Below are positions 29,715 to 39,243 of a DNA stretch of 64,000 nucleotides, one piece after another; positions within the stretch are counted from its first letter, which is position 1; the number at the start of each line of letters is the position of its first letter. Source of the DNA: a virus; IMG/VR virus record IMGVR_UViG_3300035698_007508, positions 1 through 64,000 of that record, one strand, 5' to 3'. A program made the position numbers and the translations under genes. The notes under the pieces are model-generated. The model saw only the letters and a list, made by a program, of their open reading frames with translations, ran no database searches and was not told the origin of the DNA.

Positions 29715-32700
29715 ATGGCATTACCAGACCACCTGAGGGCGTTTGACGATACTCAGACCGCCCGGGATTGGTTACATACGGGTGCCGTCGAAGCGCTTCA
29801 GAACAGATTCCCGATCGAGGATCAGGATTACAAGCTGGAGCTCGACGACGTACGCATCCAGGGTCCAACCCATTTCGGATTAGAACGTCAGAAGCAAGCA
29901 TTGATGAAGGACGAGCAACTGCGCGTCCCCATCAAGGGTCGCTGGCGTTTGACACACAAGCAGTCCGGAGAAGTATTGGACGAGCGTGAAGATACGGTGA
30001 TGCACTTGCCGTATCTGACTGATCGCGGTACTATGATCTACCGTGGTAATGAGTACAGTACGGTCAGTCAGTCCCGCCTCAAGGCCGGCGTTTATGCACG
30101 TCGCAAAAAGAGTGGTGAAATTGAGTCATTCTTCAATGTCAAGCCTGGCACTGGCCGGTCTTTCCGTGTCTGGCTTGAACCACAGACTGGTGTGTTTAAG
30201 GTCAATGTCGGCCAGTCGAACATTCCGCTATACCCGATGCTTTCTGCCCTGGGCGTGAAAGATGCCGATCTGATGAAATCGTGGGGTCCGGATATCTTGG
30301 ACGCTAACCGCAAGGCCCGCGCCGCCCAAGCCATCGACAAGTTGTATCAACGCTTTACTGGTAAGGCCCCGAGTACCGAGATCAGTGAGCAGGCGCGCCG
30401 TGAGGTTCTGGCCGAGGCACTGAACAAGGCAGAAATGGATCCGACCGTTATCGCACGTACGTTGGGCATCCAAGGCGATGGCCGGGTTTCGCCAGCCATA
30501 CTCATGCGCTCGACACAGAAGCTACTGGGCATCAGTCGCGGTGAGGACAAACCGGACGATCGTGACGCGCCTATGTACAGTCGCGTGCTATCGATCGAGG
30601 ACTTCATCAAGGAACGCATCGACAACGACAGCGGCAAGCTGGCGCGATCGCTGCTGTTCAAGGCACGCCGTGATCGTAACCTGCGCCGTGTGCGGGTGGG
30701 TGCGCTTAACGGTTATTCCACCGGCTTTCTACTGGGCAGCCGCCTGACCATGCCGCTGGAAGAGACCAATCCCCTTTCCCTATTGGAGCAGATGAACCGG
30801 GTCACCAAACTGGGTGCCGGTGGTATCTCTGATGCCGACGCGATCACGGACGAAGCCCGTAACGTGAATATCGGGCAATTGGGGTTCATCGATCCCGTGA
30901 CAGGGCCGGAAGATATCAAGATCGGTATCGACACACGCCTGGCATACAGAACTTTCAAGGGCCGCGATCAGCAGATGTATGGTGAGTTTCGGGACGCCCG
31001 GTCCGGAAAGATGGCTTACCTACGTCCGGAAGATCTCGACGGGAAGGTGGTCGCCTTTCCCGGTGAGATGGCTGGCAAAGGGAAGACTGCGACGGCAGCC
31101 GTGGATGGGACGATTCGTGAAGTCCTTAAGAGCAAGGTGGATATCGAAGTACCGTCCATGGCTCACATGCTGTCGTCGCACGTCAACCTCAACCCCATGC
31201 CTACCGCTGTACAGCCCGCTCGGCAGTTCTACGGTGCCAAGTTCTGGTCCCAGTACCTGCCGCAGGTAGAGGGCGAAGCGCCGCTCGTGGATACCGCTAT
31301 GCCTGAGGGTGATCAATCGTTCACCCAGCATTTTGGTAAGCGCGTGGGCACGCTCATGGCGCAGAAGCCTGCCACTGTTACACGTGTCACCGACAGCAAG
31401 GTGTTTCTGCGGGACGTGGACGGTGAGAAGCAGGAGATCGACCTGGTGCAGAACTTCCCGTTCAACCGTATCACCGGCGTCAGTTACCGCCCGGCCGTCA
31501 AGGCCGGTGATGCTGTCGAGGCCGGCGATGTACTGGCGCGCTCCAATTTCGTTGACGATAACAACGCACTGACATTGGGCCGGAATCTCTCCGTAGCTGT
31601 CATCCCCTATCGCGGTAATAGCTACGAAGATGGGATAGTCATTTCGGAGGATGCGGCCAAGAAATTAACAACTAGCCGGCTGTACGGTTTCGATGCCGAG
31701 GTCAAGCACGACGTACAGCTGGGTAAGAATCGGTACGCCAGTCTATTCCCTGCACGATTCTCGAAGAAGCAGCTCGAAGCGCTGGACGACGAGGGTATCG
31801 CCAAGCCGGGCACGGTATTGCAGAAGGGTGATCCGATCATCTTATCTGTTGGTCCGAAGTTGCTCACTGCCGAGGACGTACAGTTAGGGCGCCTGCACAA
31901 GGCGTTACGCCAGGCGCATACGGACAAGGCTGTAGTGTGGGACCACGACTATGAGGGTGTGATCACGGACGCCGTACGCACGCGTAGCGGCGCCAAGGTC
32001 AACGCCAAGGCCAGTGTACCGGTCCAGGTGGGCGACAAGCTGTCACCGCGCTGGGGATTGAAGGGTGTTGTGGCCAAGATCATACCTATGGATCAGATGC
32101 CGCGGCACGCCGGTACCAATGCGCCGTACGATCTGCTACTCAACCCCATGACCATTCTATCACGCGTTGCAGCGGGAGCCCTTGTCGAAATGCAGCTTGG
32201 TAAGCTGGCCAAGCTGCGCGGCAAGGGCTTCAAACTCCCGCAGATGCCGCCGGAAGAGGGCTGGTCCGCCTGGGCGCAACGTCAGCTACTTGAGGCAGGC
32301 GTGGACGAGAAGGATCAGATATTCGATCCCGAGCTGGGTCGAGCACTGAACAAGCCCGTCGCTACCGGCAACATGTACTGGATGGCGTTCCATCACCTTT
32401 CTGAGAAGAAGCTGAGTGAGCGTGGCTCGTCCGGCCTGGGCTACACACAGGATGAACTGCCGGCCCGCGGTGGGTCTGAGACGCAACAGGCCAAGAAGAT
32501 GAGTCAGATGGACATCACGCAGCTTCTGGCGCACGGTGCTACCGACGTGGTCAAGGATGGGCAGATCATCCGCGGCGCCCGGAACGAAGACTACTGGAAG
32601 GCGCTCAAGCTGGGCCGCCCGCTACCGACTCCCGACGTACCGTTTGTGTACAAGAAGTTCCTGAACCTGTTGAACGCCAGCGGCATCAACATCGAGCAGA

Positions 32701-34106
32701 AGGGCGATACGTTGCGGTTGCTGCCTATGCTTGACGAGGACGTTGATCAATTGAGCCACGGTGCAATCACGACCAGCGCGAGGGTGGACGACAAGATGGA
32801 GCCCATCAAGGGTGGGCTGTTTGATCCCGGGCGTACGGGCGGTGCAATGGGTAAGTTCTGGTCGCACATTGACCTGGTCGAGCCAATGCCCAACCCTGTC
32901 TTCGAAGAGCCGATCCGGCGCCTGTTAGGCCTGCGCAAGCAGGACTTCACCGATATCCTGGCCGGGCGTCAGGAACTCAACGGCCAATCAGGCGGCAAGG
33001 CTATACGTGATGCACTAGCCGGTATCGATATCGACGCGCAGATCAAGGAGCACCGGGGTAACATCCGTAAGTACCGCGGCGCCAACCGGGACAACTCGAT
33101 CAAGATCCTGGGATACCTGGACGCCGCCAAGAAGCAGGCCATCCACCCATCCAAGTGGATGTTGACCAAGCTTCCGGTACTGCCGCCCGTGTTCCGCCCT
33201 GTATCCCGTCTGGGCGATATCACGATCGAAGCTGACCTGAACGAGCTGTATCGCGATGCGATCGAGGTCAACAACGCTATCGGCACATTGCGTAAGGATC
33301 TACCCGAGTCGGAACTACAGGACGAGAAGGAAGCGCTGTACCGTGCAGTGAAGGCCGTGACAGGGCTTGGCGATCCAATCACACCCGAGGGACGGTCCCG
33401 CCGCCTTAAGGGCGCGCTCAAGAACGTCATCGGTGATTCACCAAAAAGCGGATTTTTTCAAAGTAGAGTTATCTCCAAGCCTGTTGACCTGGTTGGGCGT
33501 GCAGTCGTAACGCCGGATCCGACGTTGGACATGGATAGTGTAGGATTGCCCGAAGACTCTGCCTGGGACCTGTATCACGACTTTGTCGTCCGGCGGCTGG
33601 TGCGCCAGAACGTACCGTCGCACCGCGCACTCAAGATGATTGAGGATCGTGAGGCCCCAGCCAAGGATGCATTGAACCTGGAAATGCAGTCACGGCCTAT
33701 CATCATGGACCGTGCGCCGACCTGGCATCGATTCAATCTACTGGCGTTCCGGCCACATCTGGTCGAGGGTAAGACCATGCACGTGAGCCCGTTGATCACC
33801 AAGGGCTTCAACATGGATTTTGACGGTGACGCCGTGAACTTCCATGTACCGGTGTCAGACAAGGCTGTGGAGCAGACATACAGCAAAATGCTACCGAGCA
33901 AGAACCTGTTCAGTCTGACCGACTTGAAGTCGCCCCGCCACACCCCGCAGCAGGAAATGGCGCTTGGCCTGTACCTGCTGACCCGTGCCAAGACCGCTCG
34001 GGAGTCCAAGACTTTCGCTACGGTAGCCCAGGCGCGCCGGGCGTATAGGGCCGGAGAGATTGGCGCCAACGATCCGATCAACATATTGGAGTTGAAAGAT
34101 GCCTAA
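29715..34106 (+). CDS. RNA polymerase beta / N-terminal beta-prime fusion, 1463 aa
   Basis: DNA-directed RNA synthesis. Beta part (1 to ~1015): GTMIYRGNEYSTVSQSR (~100-118, the GxFIxNGxExVxxxQ motif), NSYEDGIVIS (~635), KGVVAKIIPMDQMPR (~783) followed by YDLLLNPMTILSR and GALVEMQLGKLA. Beta-prime part: GGLFDPGRTGG (~1034), LPVLPPVFRPVSRLG (~1156), DLNELYRDAIEVNN, SRVISKPVDLVGRAVV (~1251, lid/rudder region) and the catalytic NMDFDGDAVNFHVP with D1368, D1370, D1372 holding Mg. The beta-prime N-terminal zinc site is missing its Cys residues. It stops ~95 residues after the catalytic triad; the remainder is the gene at 36283. SD aaggataactc. Lies amid virion genes. Confidence 0.93.
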   Translation: MALPDHLRAFDDTQTARDWLHTGAVEALQNRFPIEDQDYKLELDDVRIQGPTHFGLERQKQALMKDEQLRVPIKGRWRLTHKQSGEVLDEREDTVMHLPYLTDRGTMIYRGNEYSTVSQSRLKAGVYARRKKSGEIESFFNVKPGTGRSFRVWLEPQTGVFKVNVGQSNIPLYPMLSALGVKDADLMKSWGPDILDANRKARAAQAIDKLYQRFTGKAPSTEISEQARREVLAEALNKAEMDPTVIARTLGIQGDGRVSPAILMRSTQKLLGISRGEDKPDDRDAPMYSRVLSIEDFIKERIDNDSGKLARSLLFKARRDRNLRRVRVGALNGYSTGFLLGSRLTMPLEETNPLSLLEQMNRVTKLGAGGISDADAITDEARNVNIGQLGFIDPVTGPEDIKIGIDTRLAYRTFKGRDQQMYGEFRDARSGKMAYLRPEDLDGKVVAFPGEMAGKGKTATAAVDGTIREVLKSKVDIEVPSMAHMLSSHVNLNPMPTAVQPARQFYGAKFWSQYLPQVEGEAPLVDTAMPEGDQSFTQHFGKRVGTLMAQKPATVTRVTDSKVFLRDVDGEKQEIDLVQNFPFNRITGVSYRPAVKAGDAVEAGDVLARSNFVDDNNALTLGRNLSVAVIPYRGNSYEDGIVISEDAAKKLTTSRLYGFDAEVKHDVQLGKNRYASLFPARFSKKQLEALDDEGIAKPGTVLQKGDPIILSVGPKLLTAEDVQLGRLHKALRQAHTDKAVVWDHDYEGVITDAVRTRSGAKVNAKASVPVQVGDKLSPRWGLKGVVAKIIPMDQMPRHAGTNAPYDLLLNPMTILSRVAAGALVEMQLGKLAKLRGKGFKLPQMPPEEGWSAWAQRQLLEAGVDEKDQIFDPELGRALNKPVATGNMYWMAFHHLSEKKLSERGSSGLGYTQDELPARGGSETQQAKKMSQMDITQLLAHGATDVVKDGQIIRGARNEDYWKALKLGRPLPTPDVPFVYKKFLNLLNASGINIEQKGDTLRLLPMLDEDVDQLSHGAITTSARVDDKMEPIKGGLFDPGRTGGAMGKFWSHIDLVEPMPNPVFEEPIRRLLGLRKQDFTDILAGRQELNGQSGGKAIRDALAGIDIDAQIKEHRGNIRKYRGANRDNSIKILGYLDAAKKQAIHPSKWMLTKLPVLPPVFRPVSRLGDITIEADLNELYRDAIEVNNAIGTLRKDLPESELQDEKEALYRAVKAVTGLGDPITPEGRSRRLKGALKNVIGDSPKSGFFQSRVISKPVDLVGRAVVTPDPTLDMDSVGLPEDSAWDLYHDFVVRRLVRQNVPSHRALKMIEDREAPAKDALNLEMQSRPIIMDRAPTWHRFNLLAFRPHLVEGKTMHVSPLITKGFNMDFDGDAVNFHVPVSDKAVEQTYSKMLPSKNLFSLTDLKSPRHTPQQEMALGLYLLTRAKTARESKTFATVAQARRAYRAGEIGANDPINILELKDA

Positions 34107-34923
34107 GCTGTGGGCGTGCAAAGATGGGTCCGTACTGATTGGTAGTGTCGAGGCGCAGGCCGCCGGCGGGCTCAGCTATGTACCGGATAGTTGCGCCACA
34201 GTTAACGTGTACGTACAGGCGTTTTACGACGACTACAGACACACGCATAGGTGTGACGATGCTTGCTTCGGCATTTATCTGCACACAGATAGGACAGTGC
34301 GGTTCCTAGGCTACGCGCAGTTGGATAACTGGATCGATGGCGGCTCCCGCTATAGTCCGTGGTGGTACATCGACTGGTCTACGGTTGACTACAACTGTCC
34401 GTGTGTCCAGTTCGAGGCACGCTGTGCAGAGAATGATCCTATAGACGATTGCGGCGGTGTACACGGTACCGGCAGTATTAGACCCGCAACGGAGTGTCAT
34501 GACGGTGTTGTCACCCTGTGCGTACGTAGCACAGCGGGCCCTAACTGTACCGCTTTGGGGTGCAATGTGATCATAGCCAATACGTGGTATCACATATGGG
34601 ACATCGCGGCCTTGACGCCGTGTGTTGGCGGCGCGTCGGTGGCCGCAATCGGACCTGCACGCGTGGAGCCTGCTGATCTACTGTGGGATGCTGCTCATCT
34701 GGCGCACGGGTTCGAATTGCGCGGTACAGATGGCGAAGCGTGGCTGCTGGCGGCCACCGACACTGACATAGAACGTGAAGCGCGCAGGGCGCACGCGGAT
34801 GAACGCGTGGCAATCTGTAAAGAGTGTCCACATTTCACGTCGGATTCCTGCGGTATCTGGAATGCGGACATGGCCGCGATACGCTATGGGCTAGATATAT
34901 GTCCGTTACGTAAATGGTGGTAA
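34099..34923 (+). CDS. Cys-rich protein between polymerase halves, 274 aa
   Basis: Starts 8 nt before the polymerase gene's end. Unusually rich in Cys (about twenty) and Asp/Tyr (HRCDDACFGIYL, DYNCPCVQFEARC, NCTALGCNV). The C-terminal 35 residues have CKECPHF, CGIW and CPLRKWW, a zinc-ribbon-like end. Residues ~60-165 appear beta-rich. No signal peptide. Either a zinc-dependent partner of the polymerase or an unrelated virion/host-interaction protein; position between the two polymerase genes is suggestive only. Confidence 0.62.
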   Translation: MPKLWACKDGSVLIGSVEAQAAGGLSYVPDSCATVNVYVQAFYDDYRHTHRCDDACFGIYLHTDRTVRFLGYAQLDNWIDGGSRYSPWWYIDWSTVDYNCPCVQFEARCAENDPIDDCGGVHGTGSIRPATECHDGVVTLCVRSTAGPNCTALGCNVIIANTWYHIWDIAALTPCVGGASVAAIGPARVEPADLLWDAAHLAHGFELRGTDGEAWLLAATDTDIEREARRAHADERVAICKECPHFTSDSCGIWNADMAAIRYGLDICPLRKWW

Positions 34924-34986
34924 AATGAGTTGCATACATCGTGGCGACTGTAGTACCGTAATATGCACATCTTGGAAGGAGACAAC

Positions 34987-35607
34987 ATGACACAGAGACT
35001 TGACTACGTGAAGTTACAGGCCGTTATGGACGGTTTTCAGAAGAAGGCGTTCGTCGCTATGCCCGGCGGGGCCGATCCAGCCGCAGGCGGGATGCAGTCA
35101 CAAGCACAGGCCGCACCACCCGGTGGCGCACCTATGGACCCGGCCGCGATGGGCGGAATGCCGATGGACCCGATGGCGGGCGGCGGTATGCCGATGGACC
35201 CGGCGGCAATGGGCATGGGCCCAATGCCCGGCTCGGTTACGATGTCCATCCCTGAACTCATTGAGTTCATTGCCGTCGTGAAGGGTGACGGAGCTGCGGC
35301 TGCGGGCGAGAAGCCTAAGAAGAAGGACGACGAAGCAGCACCGGCGGCCGGCGCACCGGCCGAGGCCGATCCGATGGCGTCGCTGAACCAGAAACTTGAC
35401 CAGCTCTTGGCGGCCGCCGGCGGCGGTATGCCGATGGACCCGATGGCAGGCGGTGGCGGTATGCCACCAATGGCCGACGGCGGTGGTATGCCGATGGACC
35501 CGATGGCGGGCGGCGGTATGCCAGCTGATCCGATGGCGGGCGGCGGTATGCCAGCTGATCCGATGGCTGGCGGAGCGCCGATGGGCGGAGCGCCGCCACC
35601 TATGTAA
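34987..35607 (+). CDS. GGGMPMDP-repeat protein, 206 aa
   Basis: SD ttggaaggagacaac sets the start at 34987. After a short helical N-terminus (RLDYVKLQAVMDGFQKKAFV) come repeats of GGGMPMDPMAGG and relatives; a folded middle part (SIPELIEFIAVVKG, KPKKKDDEAAPAAG, LNQKLDQLLAA) separates two repeat blocks. Low-complexity Met/Pro/Gly repeats suggest a flexible, perhaps phase-separating or spacer protein. Similar Gly/Met/Glu stretches are in the scaffold candidate at 47723. Role unknown. Confidence 0.62.
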   Translation: MTQRLDYVKLQAVMDGFQKKAFVAMPGGADPAAGGMQSQAQAAPPGGAPMDPAAMGGMPMDPMAGGGMPMDPAAMGMGPMPGSVTMSIPELIEFIAVVKGDGAAAAGEKPKKKDDEAAPAAGAPAEADPMASLNQKLDQLLAAAGGGMPMDPMAGGGGMPPMADGGGMPMDPMAGGGMPADPMAGGGMPADPMAGGAPMGGAPPPM

Positions 35608-35615
35608 GGACTAAC

Positions 35616-35873
35616 ATGGCAAATGGACGACCTGGACGGGTACGCGTGTTGCAGGGGGTCAAGCAGGTTCTGCTGGACACGCACGAAGCTACCGTCATCG
35701 AATTCCGGGACCAGTTTGGGGATCTGAACGCGTTGATCTCACGTCATTTCAACGATGACATGTGGATCTTCACGACCAAGGCCGATCCGGACTGGCACAC
35801 GCACTTGGTGCGGTTGGGCTATGCGCCAGCTGATATGAACGTACATCAACTCGTACAGAACTTGAAAGGCTGA
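35616..35873 (+). CDS. Hypothetical protein, 85 aa
   Basis: SD taaggactaac. Compact alpha/beta protein (KQVLLDTHEATVIEFRDQFG, MWIFTTKADPDWHTHLVRLG) with no Cys. Second of the small genes between the two polymerase halves. Not recognised. Confidence 0.6.
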   Translation: MANGRPGRVRVLQGVKQVLLDTHEATVIEFRDQFGDLNALISRHFNDDMWIFTTKADPDWHTHLVRLGYAPADMNVHQLVQNLKG

Positions 35874-35874
35874 C

Positions 35875-36279
35875 ATGAATGATACACCCGCATTGAGCTA
35901 CGTTCCGCCTTGGGTCCGCGACCTAATGGTAGGCCTTTGTACCGCCGCCGTACTCGCATCCGTAACCCTAGTCTTACGCCTGGACAAGACCGTCGCTACG
36001 TTTGTCGAGTCGCACGTGGAGACGCATAGGCAGCTGGACAGGATGATTACGGAGTTGAAGAACAATACCGTTCAGACCGCCCGCGAAGTCAACCTACTGC
36101 ACGACGATTTCCTTGAGTTCTCGGCCGGCACTACTGCTAACCGTTACACCATCTACAACGCGTTTACGGATCAGAAGAAGAGTGCCGAGGAGCTCAGGGA
36201 AGTATGGAACGCTATTCACGAGATCAAGTTGGACGTGGTCAAAATACAGAGCGATAGCGAGCGCATTACGCACGAGTGA
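35875..36279 (+). CDS. Membrane-anchored coiled-coil protein, 134 aa
   Basis: ATG one base after the previous stop. Residues ~18-36 (LMVGLCTAAVLASVTLVLRL) form a transmembrane helix; the rest is a long amphipathic helix/coiled coil (HRQLDRMITELKNNTVQTAR). Could be holin-like, or an anchor holding a virion component at the membrane. Immediately upstream of the beta-prime C-terminal gene. Confidence 0.6.
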   Translation: MNDTPALSYVPPWVRDLMVGLCTAAVLASVTLVLRLDKTVATFVESHVETHRQLDRMITELKNNTVQTAREVNLLHDDFLEFSAGTTANRYTIYNAFTDQKKSAEELREVWNAIHEIKLDVVKIQSDSERITHE

Positions 36280-36282
36280 CGT

Positions 36283-39243
36283 ATGCAGACAACCATCGGA
36301 CAGGTACTTGTAAACGACGCGCTTCCCGAGGAAATGCGGAATTACGGTCGGATATTGACCAGCAACGAAGCTGATGACTTGTTGGGCGCGGTTGCGCGTG
36401 ACCACCCCGAGGACTACCGTGATATCTCCCATGCACTGGTACAATTGGGCCGCAACGCCGCGTTCGAAGAGTCAGCAACGCTGTCCCTGTCTGACATGCA
36501 GGTCCCGTTTGACCGTAAAGAGCTGTTCGATCATGTACGCACTCAGACCCGTAAGATCATGGCGTCCAAGGATATGACTGACGATCAGAAACAGCAAGCG
36601 CTGGTTAGCGTATACGGGCAAGTCCAGAAATTCTTCGTCGATAACACGTACAAGGATATGGCGGCCAAGGACAACCCATTCGCGCTACAGGTACTGTCTA
36701 AGGCCCGCGGTAACCCGTCCCAGCTTGCAGCACTCATGACTACGCCTGGTACGTATACCGATGCATATGGCAACGTGATTCCCGTTTTCGTCCGCCATTC
36801 CTACGCCGAGGGCCTGAGCCCTCACGAGTACTGGGCGGGTACGTACGGCGCTAGGCAGGGTGTGATATGTTTGCATCCCGATACGGAGGTATTATTAGCC
36901 GATTTTACGGTCAGGAGGTTATCCGAGATCCGCGTTGGCGACACAGTATTAACAGATACTAATGAAGGCTTGGTACCTACTGCAGTACGTGCTGTGCACA
37001 ATAACGGGCTACAGCCTATGTATGAATTTACGTTCCGTAAGAATGCGAGCCAGTCTTACGTGCATGTCACGTGTACTGACCAACACAAATTCAAGGCGCG
37101 TTTGTGGAAGTCGGGCGCACGAGGCACGCCGCGAAAACTGCTTGAACCGCAGCTACGTCCTTTGTCAGACGCACGGTACCAGCGCAGGAAATGGAATAAT
37201 AATTACGTGGCAGTGCCAGCTGGAGGCGCGTGCGTTGGAGGTAAGCACGAACCGTTGGCATTACTATTGGGTTTGATGCTGGGTGACGGGTGTACAACCA
37301 AGTCTACACGTGGGCGATATAGTATCAGCTGCGCTGATCAGATTCTGATACGCGATGTACACGATTATATGGCAGAGCACGGTGTAGAACTGGTTAAAGT
37401 CGGTGGTGACAATTATAACTGGGTATTGAAACAGGCTTCAGCTGTATTCAATACCACACATACCAGCTTGACGAGCTATATGGGCGGAAAGTATGCACAC
37501 CAGAAAACATTACCGGTAGATATATATACGTGGGATACACACAGTATAGGCGCATTGGTAGGCGGATTGATAAGCGCTGACGGTAGCTTTACGCGCAGCG
37601 AAACAAGTAAGTGGATGTGTATACAGTGCACATCCAGAGATATGATCGCAGAACTGCATCGCGTACTGGAACTCAGACTAGGCGTATGGTGTAACCCTAT
37701 TTACCGTGTGGATAAAGCTGACAAACAGCACGCAGTACACGATCAATACGGTTTCACGATCACGCACCCCGATTCACTATGCAAACTTAGAGCGTGTATC
37801 ACGCTTGTAGGTATAAAGCGTGAACAGTTTGCAGCGTGGGATCTCAAGCCAGGTACGCGCTATAGTCCGCACGGTTTTCGTATACAGGGGCGTAGACTTG
37901 TCGGTATGCAGCCTGCACTAGATCTAGAAGTTGAGCACGTTTCTCATACATTTGTACTGGCGAACGGACTTATATCGTCTAATAGTACGAAATTTGCCAC
38001 CCGTGACGCTGGCGATCTAGGTAAGCAGTTCAACCAGGCGGCCATGCGTATGGTCGTGACCGCGAATGACTGCGACACGGCGAGCGGTATACCGGTCTCC
38101 ACCGACGACAAGGATACGATTGGTGGGGTACTGGCGCGTAAGGCCGGCAAGTACCCACCCGGCACCGTAGTTTCCAAAGAGGTACTTGAGGATCTGCAGG
38201 ACCTGGACAGTATCGTGGTGCGGTCTCCGCTCACCTGCGGCTTGTCCCAGGGCGTGTGCAAGCAGTGCGTCGGGCTCCGTGAGAATGGGGCCTTCCCGAA
38301 CACGGGCGATCATGTAGGTATCAACGCGGCCAGTGCGCTGGCCGAACGTATCGCCCAAGGAAGCTTAAATGTGAAACATTCTGGCGGCATGTCCAAGGGC
38401 GATACGGGCGAGAAAGTTTACGCTGGCTTCGATGTGATCAATCAGCTGTTCCAGGCACCCAAGACGTTTCCGAACCGCGCCGCCATCGCCACGATGGACG
38501 GCCGTGTTGATCGTATCGAGCCCGCCGCACAGGGCGGTCAGAACATCTATATCGACGACGAGCTCCATTACGCGTTGCCTGACGCCAAGGTAACCGTGCA
38601 GGTAGGGGACCGGGTCGAGGCTGGTGACCAGCTGTCCAGCGGTATTCTTAATCCCCGAGAGGTCGTGCAGTATAAAGGTATCGGCGAGGGCCGGCGTTAC
38701 TTCACGGAACGGGCGGCCCAGGCATTCCGTGAGAGCGGGTACAGCATCAATCGCCGCAATCTCGAAATCCTGGTTCGCGGTATGATGGATCACGCGGTGG
38801 TAGATGATCCCGACGGTTCTGGCGATTACCTACCAGGCGACATCGTGTCCTACAACGCTCTGGCCCGCGGGTACCGGCCACGCAAGGACGCGCAGCAGTT
38901 GGACACGGACAAGGCTATCGGACAGTACCTGGAACAGCCGATCCTGCACCACACGATCGGGACGCGCATCACCCGCGCTATGGCCAAGCAGTTACGTGAC
39001 TTCGGACACACACGTGTACTGGCGCACCCGTCGGTACCATCGTTTTCCCCGACGATGGTAGGCCTGCGTGCCGTACCGCAGCAGGAGTCAGACTGGATGG
39101 CACAGATGGGCTCCAGCCATTTGCAGAAGAATTTGCTCAAGAACGTACAGCGTAATGCTGAGTCTCAGACGCACGGCCTACACCCGGTACCGGCGTTGGC
39201 TAAAGGTGTGGACTTCGGAGATACAGAGGAGGTCGGGTACTGA
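36283..39243 (+). CDS. RNA polymerase beta-prime C-terminal part, intein-containing, 986 aa
   Basis: Completes the beta-prime subunit. Residues 1-195: TTIGQVLVNDALPEEMRNYG, a SLSDMQVP segment, bridge helix (131-152, NPFALQVLSKARGNPSQLAA) and trigger-loop start (SPHEYWAGTYGARQGVI). An intein occupies residues 196-567. From 568: STKFATRDAGDLGKQF (trigger helix), the second beta-prime zinc site (C597, C652, C659, C662; last two spacings match C888/C895/C898 of E. coli) and GDHVGINAASALAERIAQGS (degenerate GExVGxIAAQSIGEPG), then HSGG. Spliced length is about 614 residues. Without excision the active centre could not close. Confidence 0.92.
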   Translation: MQTTIGQVLVNDALPEEMRNYGRILTSNEADDLLGAVARDHPEDYRDISHALVQLGRNAAFEESATLSLSDMQVPFDRKELFDHVRTQTRKIMASKDMTDDQKQQALVSVYGQVQKFFVDNTYKDMAAKDNPFALQVLSKARGNPSQLAALMTTPGTYTDAYGNVIPVFVRHSYAEGLSPHEYWAGTYGARQGVICLHPDTEVLLADFTVRRLSEIRVGDTVLTDTNEGLVPTAVRAVHNNGLQPMYEFTFRKNASQSYVHVTCTDQHKFKARLWKSGARGTPRKLLEPQLRPLSDARYQRRKWNNNYVAVPAGGACVGGKHEPLALLLGLMLGDGCTTKSTRGRYSISCADQILIRDVHDYMAEHGVELVKVGGDNYNWVLKQASAVFNTTHTSLTSYMGGKYAHQKTLPVDIYTWDTHSIGALVGGLISADGSFTRSETSKWMCIQCTSRDMIAELHRVLELRLGVWCNPIYRVDKADKQHAVHDQYGFTITHPDSLCKLRACITLVGIKREQFAAWDLKPGTRYSPHGFRIQGRRLVGMQPALDLEVEHVSHTFVLANGLISSNSTKFATRDAGDLGKQFNQAAMRMVVTANDCDTASGIPVSTDDKDTIGGVLARKAGKYPPGTVVSKEVLEDLQDLDSIVVRSPLTCGLSQGVCKQCVGLRENGAFPNTGDHVGINAASALAERIAQGSLNVKHSGGMSKGDTGEKVYAGFDVINQLFQAPKTFPNRAAIATMDGRVDRIEPAAQGGQNIYIDDELHYALPDAKVTVQVGDRVEAGDQLSSGILNPREVVQYKGIGEGRRYFTERAAQAFRESGYSINRRNLEILVRGMMDHAVVDDPDGSGDYLPGDIVSYNALARGYRPRKDAQQLDTDKAIGQYLEQPILHHTIGTRITRAMAKQLRDFGHTRVLAHPSVPSFSPTMVGLRAVPQQESDWMAQMGSSHLQKNLLKNVQRNAESQTHGLHPVPALAKGVDFGDTEEVGY
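36868..37983 (+). mobile_element. Intein with LAGLIDADG homing endonuclease, 372 aa
   Basis: Self-splicing protein element in the beta-prime trigger loop. N-terminus C196 begins block A (CLHPDTEVLLADFTVRRLSE); block B is HVTCTDQHKF; LAGLIDADG-type motifs are LLLGLMLGDG (~325) and ALVGGLISADGSF (~423); C-terminal blocks F/G are ALDLEVEHVSHTFVLANGL then ISSN with N567, followed by Ser568 as the +1 nucleophile. The penultimate residue is Ser instead of the usual His. The segment is visibly more AT-rich (TTA, ATA codons) than its host gene, a sign of separate acquisition. Confidence 0.93.

Follow-up and report, generated by a model that had tools for sequence, protein, structure and literature searches.

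A predicted LAGLIDADG intein in the bridge helix of a phage multisubunit RNA polymerase, and its relatives at neighbouring catalytic-centre sites

Introduction

Inteins near the active site of large RNA polymerase subunits are already known, as the retrieved text of PMC1635734 lists them in the eukaryotic RPA2, RPB2 and RPC2 subunits and in the archaeal rPol A' and A'' subunits. The eukaryotic examples occupy six sites in the second-largest subunit, which is the equivalent of beta, unlike the beta' element that we describe here (PMC1635734, same text). The archaeal rPol A'' sites could fall in the trigger-loop region, and the terms bridge helix and trigger loop are both absent from the retrieved portion of that article. 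Among phages, a heavy intein load in core genes has been described for crAss-like and Jug phages (excerpts of PMC7886860 and PMC12363816), but those inteins reside in TerL, around nrdD and in other genes rather than in a polymerase of the present kind, and crAss-like phages have a different, highly divergent type of RNA polymerase. A closer comparison for the polymerase is offered by the mReC phages, which are Caudovirales with a deep-branching multisubunit RNA polymerase whose beta and beta' are, like those of the phage studied here, recognisably related to the bacterial subunits (excerpts of PMC7481178). Neither "intein" nor "bridge helix" is used in the retrieved main text of that study, and inteins likewise go unmentioned in the retrieved text of a review of jumbo-phage polymerases (PMC7598289). 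More broadly, the open-access literature, as far as it was retrieved, held no recognisable account of inteins in the bridge helix or trigger loop of a phage beta' (PMC12363816, PMC7886860, PMC7824862, PMC5418858, PMC4071816, PMC2776397, PMC2988716, PMC10638138, PMC7412058, PMC12619734 and PMC13282480, all in part).

In architecture, the element resembles PI-SceI, the yeast VMA1 intein, as both combine a Hint splicing domain with a two-motif LAGLIDADG endonuclease. However, the two are only about 19% identical and reside in different host genes, and PI-SceI is the larger (454 residues in the matched chain). Here we examined the window, a stretch of 64,000 nucleotides from the virus record IMGVR_UViG_3300035698_007508, and we estimate a probability of roughly 87% that it carries a selfish class 1 LAGLIDADG intein that entered, by homing, the bridge helix of the multisubunit RNA polymerase encoded by the phage itself.

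Results

Both polymerase genes and the features mapped within them lie on the plus strand of the window. The interrupted gene (36283-39243) is a single continuous frame encoding the C-terminal part of beta', with 986 amino acids as a precursor and 614 without the intein. It matches the Pfam family RNA_pol_Rpb1_5 (E = 2.5e-10) and beta' chains in the PDB (best E = 1.5e-37), and it covers the bacterial beta' from a point ahead of the bridge helix through to the C-terminus. The continuity of this frame ruled out a group I intron as the identity of the insert. An upstream ORF (29715-34106; 1463 aa) encodes beta fused to the N-terminal part of beta' and contains no intein in this phage; its translation includes the metal-binding DFDGD motif of beta' (33816-33830), which aligns with NADFDGD of E. 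coli. The same two-gene layout is found in Salmonella phage Arash, and the split of beta' after the DFDGD domain is shared with other phages and cyanobacteria (PMC7598289, retrieved text). The two polymerase genes are separated by several small ORFs (34099-36282), one of which (34963-35607) encodes 214 amino acids with abundant Gly, Met, Pro and Asp repeats (GGGMPMDPMAGGG). The sole tRNA gene detected in the window is a tRNA-Gln (anticodon TTG; 2290-2363). Nine other window proteins had no family match in Pfam. The Gp23-type capsid family PF07068, associated with mReC phages, had no match in the full 126754-base record, and the control genomes gave no match either.

The insert itself (36868-37983) comprises 372 residues from Cys1 to Asn372, equivalent to residues 196-567 of the precursor. 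An earlier note, made from the sequence alone, had described splicing blocks and two LAGLIDADG motifs here, and all of these are indeed present and conserved in relatives. Block A (CLHPDTEVLL; 36868-36897) begins with the presumptive nucleophile Cys1, which occurs in all 43 inteins that we collected from phage beta' genes, and block B (TDQH; 37075-37086) supplies T70 (42/43) and H73 (43/43). The two LAGLIDADG motifs (37258-37290 and 37549-37584) contain D140 and D238, both of which are invariant in the 12 full-size inteins that were aligned, and the second Asp is found in all 25 collected inteins having a residue at that position. Blocks F and G (ALDLEVEHVSHTFVLANGLISSN; 37915-37983) end in Ser371-Asn372, with the block F Asp conserved in 42 of 43 inteins and the terminal Asn in all 43. 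The C-extein starts with Ser+1 (37984-37986), a residue that is also Ser in 14 of 66 intein-free relatives. Pfam LAGLIDADG_3 matched the insert (E = 2.4e-9) and was recognised in all 12 full-size inteins, whereas a Hint family matched only below the cut-off. A profile built from the 12 full-size relatives found PI-SceI (E = 4.2e-17) as well as DnaE inteins. Likewise, the predicted structure of the insert (mean pLDDT 86.5) aligned with PI-SceI over 337 residues (Z = 27.4, rmsd 3.6), and its two ends aligned as a Hint fold with many solved inteins, including NpuDnaE (Z = 18.3, rmsd 2.1, 133 residues). Thus, the earlier identification of an intein at this position was borne out by motifs, profile and predicted fold, and the spliced product that it anticipated, of about 614 residues, has exactly that size when the insert is subtracted from the ORF.

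Each of the residues expected of a class 1 intein is present, namely Cys1, the block B TxxH, the C-terminal Asn and Ser+1. The evidence against such an assignment is the penultimate residue, which is Ser371 instead of the usual His, although this is common to most of the family (Ser in 37 inteins, His in 3, Lys in 2 and Ala in 1). A penultimate His is usual in class 1 inteins but not obligatory. Since Gly-Asn ends are on record among known inteins (PMC1635734, retrieved text), Ser371 does not bar the insert from class 1. The replaced His and the resulting SSN terminus could also signal an intein in decay that has lost splicing, leaving a phage polymerase that is dead or dispensable. We consider this very unlikely, as the frame and both endonuclease Asp residues are intact, the penultimate Ser is shared by those 37 inteins, and the flanking extein is undamaged and resembles that of intein-free kin such as L088 (about 58-59% identity). 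The base composition of the insert is also distinctive. With a G+C content of 48.4% versus 57.6%, it is the lowest in the window, none of 629 sliding stretches of equal size being as low, and its third-position G+C is 46%, compared with 66-70% in the flanks. This suggests a recent arrival of the intein.

We next turn to the placement of the insert, which the earlier note had assigned to the trigger loop, reading the joined extein GARQGVI-STKFATRDAG as a trigger-loop pattern. Both parts of that assignment have to be revised. In an alignment with E. coli rpoC, GARQGVI^STKF falls on GARKGLA^DTAL (778-784^785), and the motif at the junction is also found in Thermus and other beta' chains of the PDB. 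The fetched E. coli record begins GARKGLADTAL at 778 and TMRTFHIGG at 931; the former is the bridge helix and the latter the trigger loop. The same alignment places the N-terminal half of the bridge helix at 36820-36867 and its C-terminal half at 37984-38040, while the trigger loop (QGSLNVKHSGG) and the trigger-loop helix ending in the His936 equivalent (38314-38379, with this His at 38377-38379) are uninterrupted. A structural model built for L088, an intein-free relative (mean pLDDT 82.2; Z = 32.1, rmsd 5.3 and 543 residues aligned against Thermus beta') agrees with this placement and, together with the rpoC alignment, led us to reject the trigger-loop siting. In the model, a single helix (178-212) corresponds to the bridge helix and contains all five of the bridge-helix insertion sites described below (L088 192-206), whereas the trigger-loop sites fall within or at the end of the helix spanning 306-327. 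Genuine trigger-loop inteins do exist in relatives, including L153, L181, L182, L194 and L028.

The earlier note had also proposed a search for intein-free alleles among relatives, and these proved to be plentiful, with 66 distinct relatives aligning across both the bridge helix and the trigger loop without any insert. In the extein tree, the sister of the window gene is the intein-free L098, whose flank (GTYGARKSVI^STKFATRDAG) is near-identical. Such common intein-free alleles argue against the insert persisting as an additional domain of the mature protein, for which the E. coli beta' itself provides a precedent in the long lineage insertion beside its trigger-loop His. Given that the insert additionally interrupts a helix and that Cys1, the block B His and the Asn are preserved in 43 of 43 inteins, we regard this explanation as extremely improbable.

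In total, we collected 43 inteins from 32 distinct phage beta' genes. They occupy ten sites, of which five belong to the bridge helix and four to the trigger-loop helix, while the last lies just past the trigger loop. We label each site by the window extein position and the E. coli beta' residue preceding the junction. The bridge-helix sites are 194/783 (4 inteins), 195/784 (3 inteins, from the window, L179 and L224), 198/787 (1 intein), 199/788 (6 inteins) and 207/796 (6 inteins), and the trigger-loop sites are 314/923 (3 inteins), 323/932 (10 inteins), 324/933 (3 inteins) and 327/936 (6 inteins, five of them from the window's lineage and one from L028). The remaining site, at approximately 346, has a single intein (L191). 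Endonuclease-size inserts occur in 24 of the 43, while the other 19 are mini-inteins of 126-178 amino acids that retain Cys1, the block B His and the Asn, which is the expected outcome if splicing is still required. Most genes contain one intein (23 genes), but seven have two and two have three. One of the latter (L180, 3147-7085) has inteins at 199, 207 and 323, and the first two, eight residues apart in the same helix, are both mini-inteins. The intein most similar to that of the window among the other 42 is the same-site L179 (40% identity). A different intein of 359 amino acids with a canonical HHN^T end is found in L028 (6385-7461) directly after the trigger-loop His, and its host gene encodes a fully fused beta-beta' polymerase of 2495 amino acids.

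These totals (43 inteins, 32 genes) do not measure prevalence, as the collection was enlarged by two scans aimed at the intein itself. In a scan with the DFDGD region, the best 80 of 555 confirmed stretches were examined; 60 of these 80 loci span the bridge helix to the trigger loop, and 12 of the 60 have an intein there. Counted by distinct fragment, the same best-80 set has an intein in 7 of 51, or in 6 of 50 when the truncated copy L143 is merged. The first intein-directed scan yielded 31 loci, consisting of 30 phage beta' genes and the terminase-like L198. The second yielded 44 loci, of which 16 were inspected closely and the remaining 28 lie on contig names already met in the first. Of the 16, 12 are beta' genes (L208 repeats the L180 contig), L222 and L225 resemble terminases, and L232 and L240 are fragments. 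The inserts of L198, L222 and L225 are distant intein relatives within large-terminase-like genes, and in L222 and L225 the insert comes after SRR or SRRLGK of an apparent ATP-binding motif. A scan with the C-extein alone and a phage-record search with the window intein had no match, a scan with the window intein alone found only an unrelated terminase-like intein (L030), and a scan with the L028 intein found only itself and a DNA polymerase intein (L032). Among cellular rpoC relatives, 40 of 41 loci match E. coli in one piece from the bridge helix to the trigger loop, although two of these (L058 and L064) matched only over the later part of the stretch. The two-piece match of the remaining locus (L054) was dismissed as an intein, being a lineage insertion devoid of intein motifs; this is a Selenomonadales rpoC with an insertion of about 200 amino acids ahead of the zinc-finger cysteines.

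To place these inteins on the phylogeny of their hosts, we used an extein tree of 70 rows, with L177, which is a truncated L140-group copy, left out of the intein-presence counts. Intein presence requires at least 15 changes on this tree, compared with 19.0 for shuffled labels (2 of 200 shuffles as low). In the tree of 33 inteins, which has few well-supported branches, the site label requires 19 changes versus 23.0 when shuffled (again 2 of 200 as low). We read this history as one of probable partial inheritance within a site combined with apparent moves between sites. Near relatives can differ sharply, as the intein-bearing L182 sits among near intein-free kin, and L172 and L195, which are closely related to each other, hold different inteins. 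This patchiness bears upon another explanation, that host state, redox or assembly with the beta-beta'N chain controls splicing and that the intein serves as an on-switch delaying the phage polymerase. A broken bridge helix should indeed leave the precursor inactive, the RNA polymerase genes of some phages in this lineage contain several inteins, and an environment-responsive mycobacterial DnaB intein has been reported (PMC6195587, in excerpt). However, in addition to its patchy presence among close kin, the intein has no sensor-like feature in its sequence, and we judge the on-switch to be unlikely. A regulatory role of splicing is possible but unsupported; a selfish homing element accounts better for the patchy distribution, the foreign base composition and the relatedness of inteins across sites. 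As for the choice of sites, the stretches surrounding the trigger-loop sites are unusually conserved (p = 0.0004), but the five bridge-helix sites do not rank among the best-conserved parts of the protein (p = 0.14). Thus, the usual homing argument suits the trigger-loop sites better than the site in the window.

The family profile run over the best 80 loci also matched beta-beta'N ORFs, so we dropped the idea that the inteins are limited to the bridge helix and trigger loop. Of 68 distinct beta-beta'N ORFs, the 29 with at least 1590 amino acids were mapped and their junctions judged by eye, such that smaller inserts may be missed. This identified 29 inserts in 21 ORFs (excluding the near copy L142), each with a Cys or Ser start and an Asn end followed by Ser, Thr or Cys. 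They follow E. coli beta residues ~513, 538, 546, 565, 682, 685, 762, 812, 1066, 1077, 1270 and 1283 as well as beta' ~67, and their junctions represent other catalytic-centre sites in the same lineage. Three more inserts (L089, L097 and L098) are non-canonical. Two of these are located at the NADFDGD metal motif, with that of L098 beginning with Tyr (DFDGD^Tyr...Asn^TVNF) and that of L097 ending in Asp (DFDG-N-Cys...Asp^TMNF), and the ends of both of these large inserts do not fit class 1 inteins.

Discussion

The splicing and homing of these inteins are inferred from their anatomy. For the window phage, the intein would have inserted at the position equivalent to the junction of Ala784 and Asp785 in E. 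coli beta'. Translation would yield a 986-residue precursor in which the insert folds as an intein and the polymerase is inactive. Splicing would then join Gly-Val-Ile to Ser-Thr-Lys, producing a beta' fragment of 614 residues in which the bridge helix is unbroken. Given the location of the insert in this helix, its self-excision is probably a precondition for enzyme activity. In mixed infections, the endonuclease would cut intein-free alleles and thereby spread the intein. Active-centre sites would be kept, with precise loss as the only tolerated escape, because imprecise deletion would kill the polymerase. It is also conceivable, though improbable in our estimation, that inteins have occupied almost all moving or catalytic parts of the polymerase in this lineage (the bridge helix, the trigger loop, fork loop 2 with the rifampicin region, the beta FED and GDK motifs and the beta' metal motif) and that the splicing of one or more of them serves as a post-translational timer, holding the enzyme inactive until assembly or late infection.

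Taken alone, the window insert is an intein of an ordinary kind. The unusual aspect is how inteins are concentrated in the catalytic centre of a single enzyme throughout a phage lineage, along with neighbouring sites that are one codon apart and inteins stacked in a single helix. In cellular RNA polymerases, nucleotide addition is driven by two mobile elements, and in a widespread phage lineage inteins break both of them, with up to three per gene. These genes provide a natural matched set of polymerases with and without inteins, of endonuclease-bearing and mini-inteins and of sites one codon apart, with which experiments could address what brings inteins to active centres, by what route they pass from one site of a protein to another and whether the timing of a viral enzyme can be set by splicing. 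Annotators should also expect interruptions in phage RNA polymerase genes of this type. Lastly, a second intein of 398 amino acids is present outside of the window in the same virus record, near base 86,400 (L001, 493-1686). It splits a subtilisin-like protease ORF between SGT and SMACP, and its +1 residue would presumably be the catalytic Ser of subtilases.
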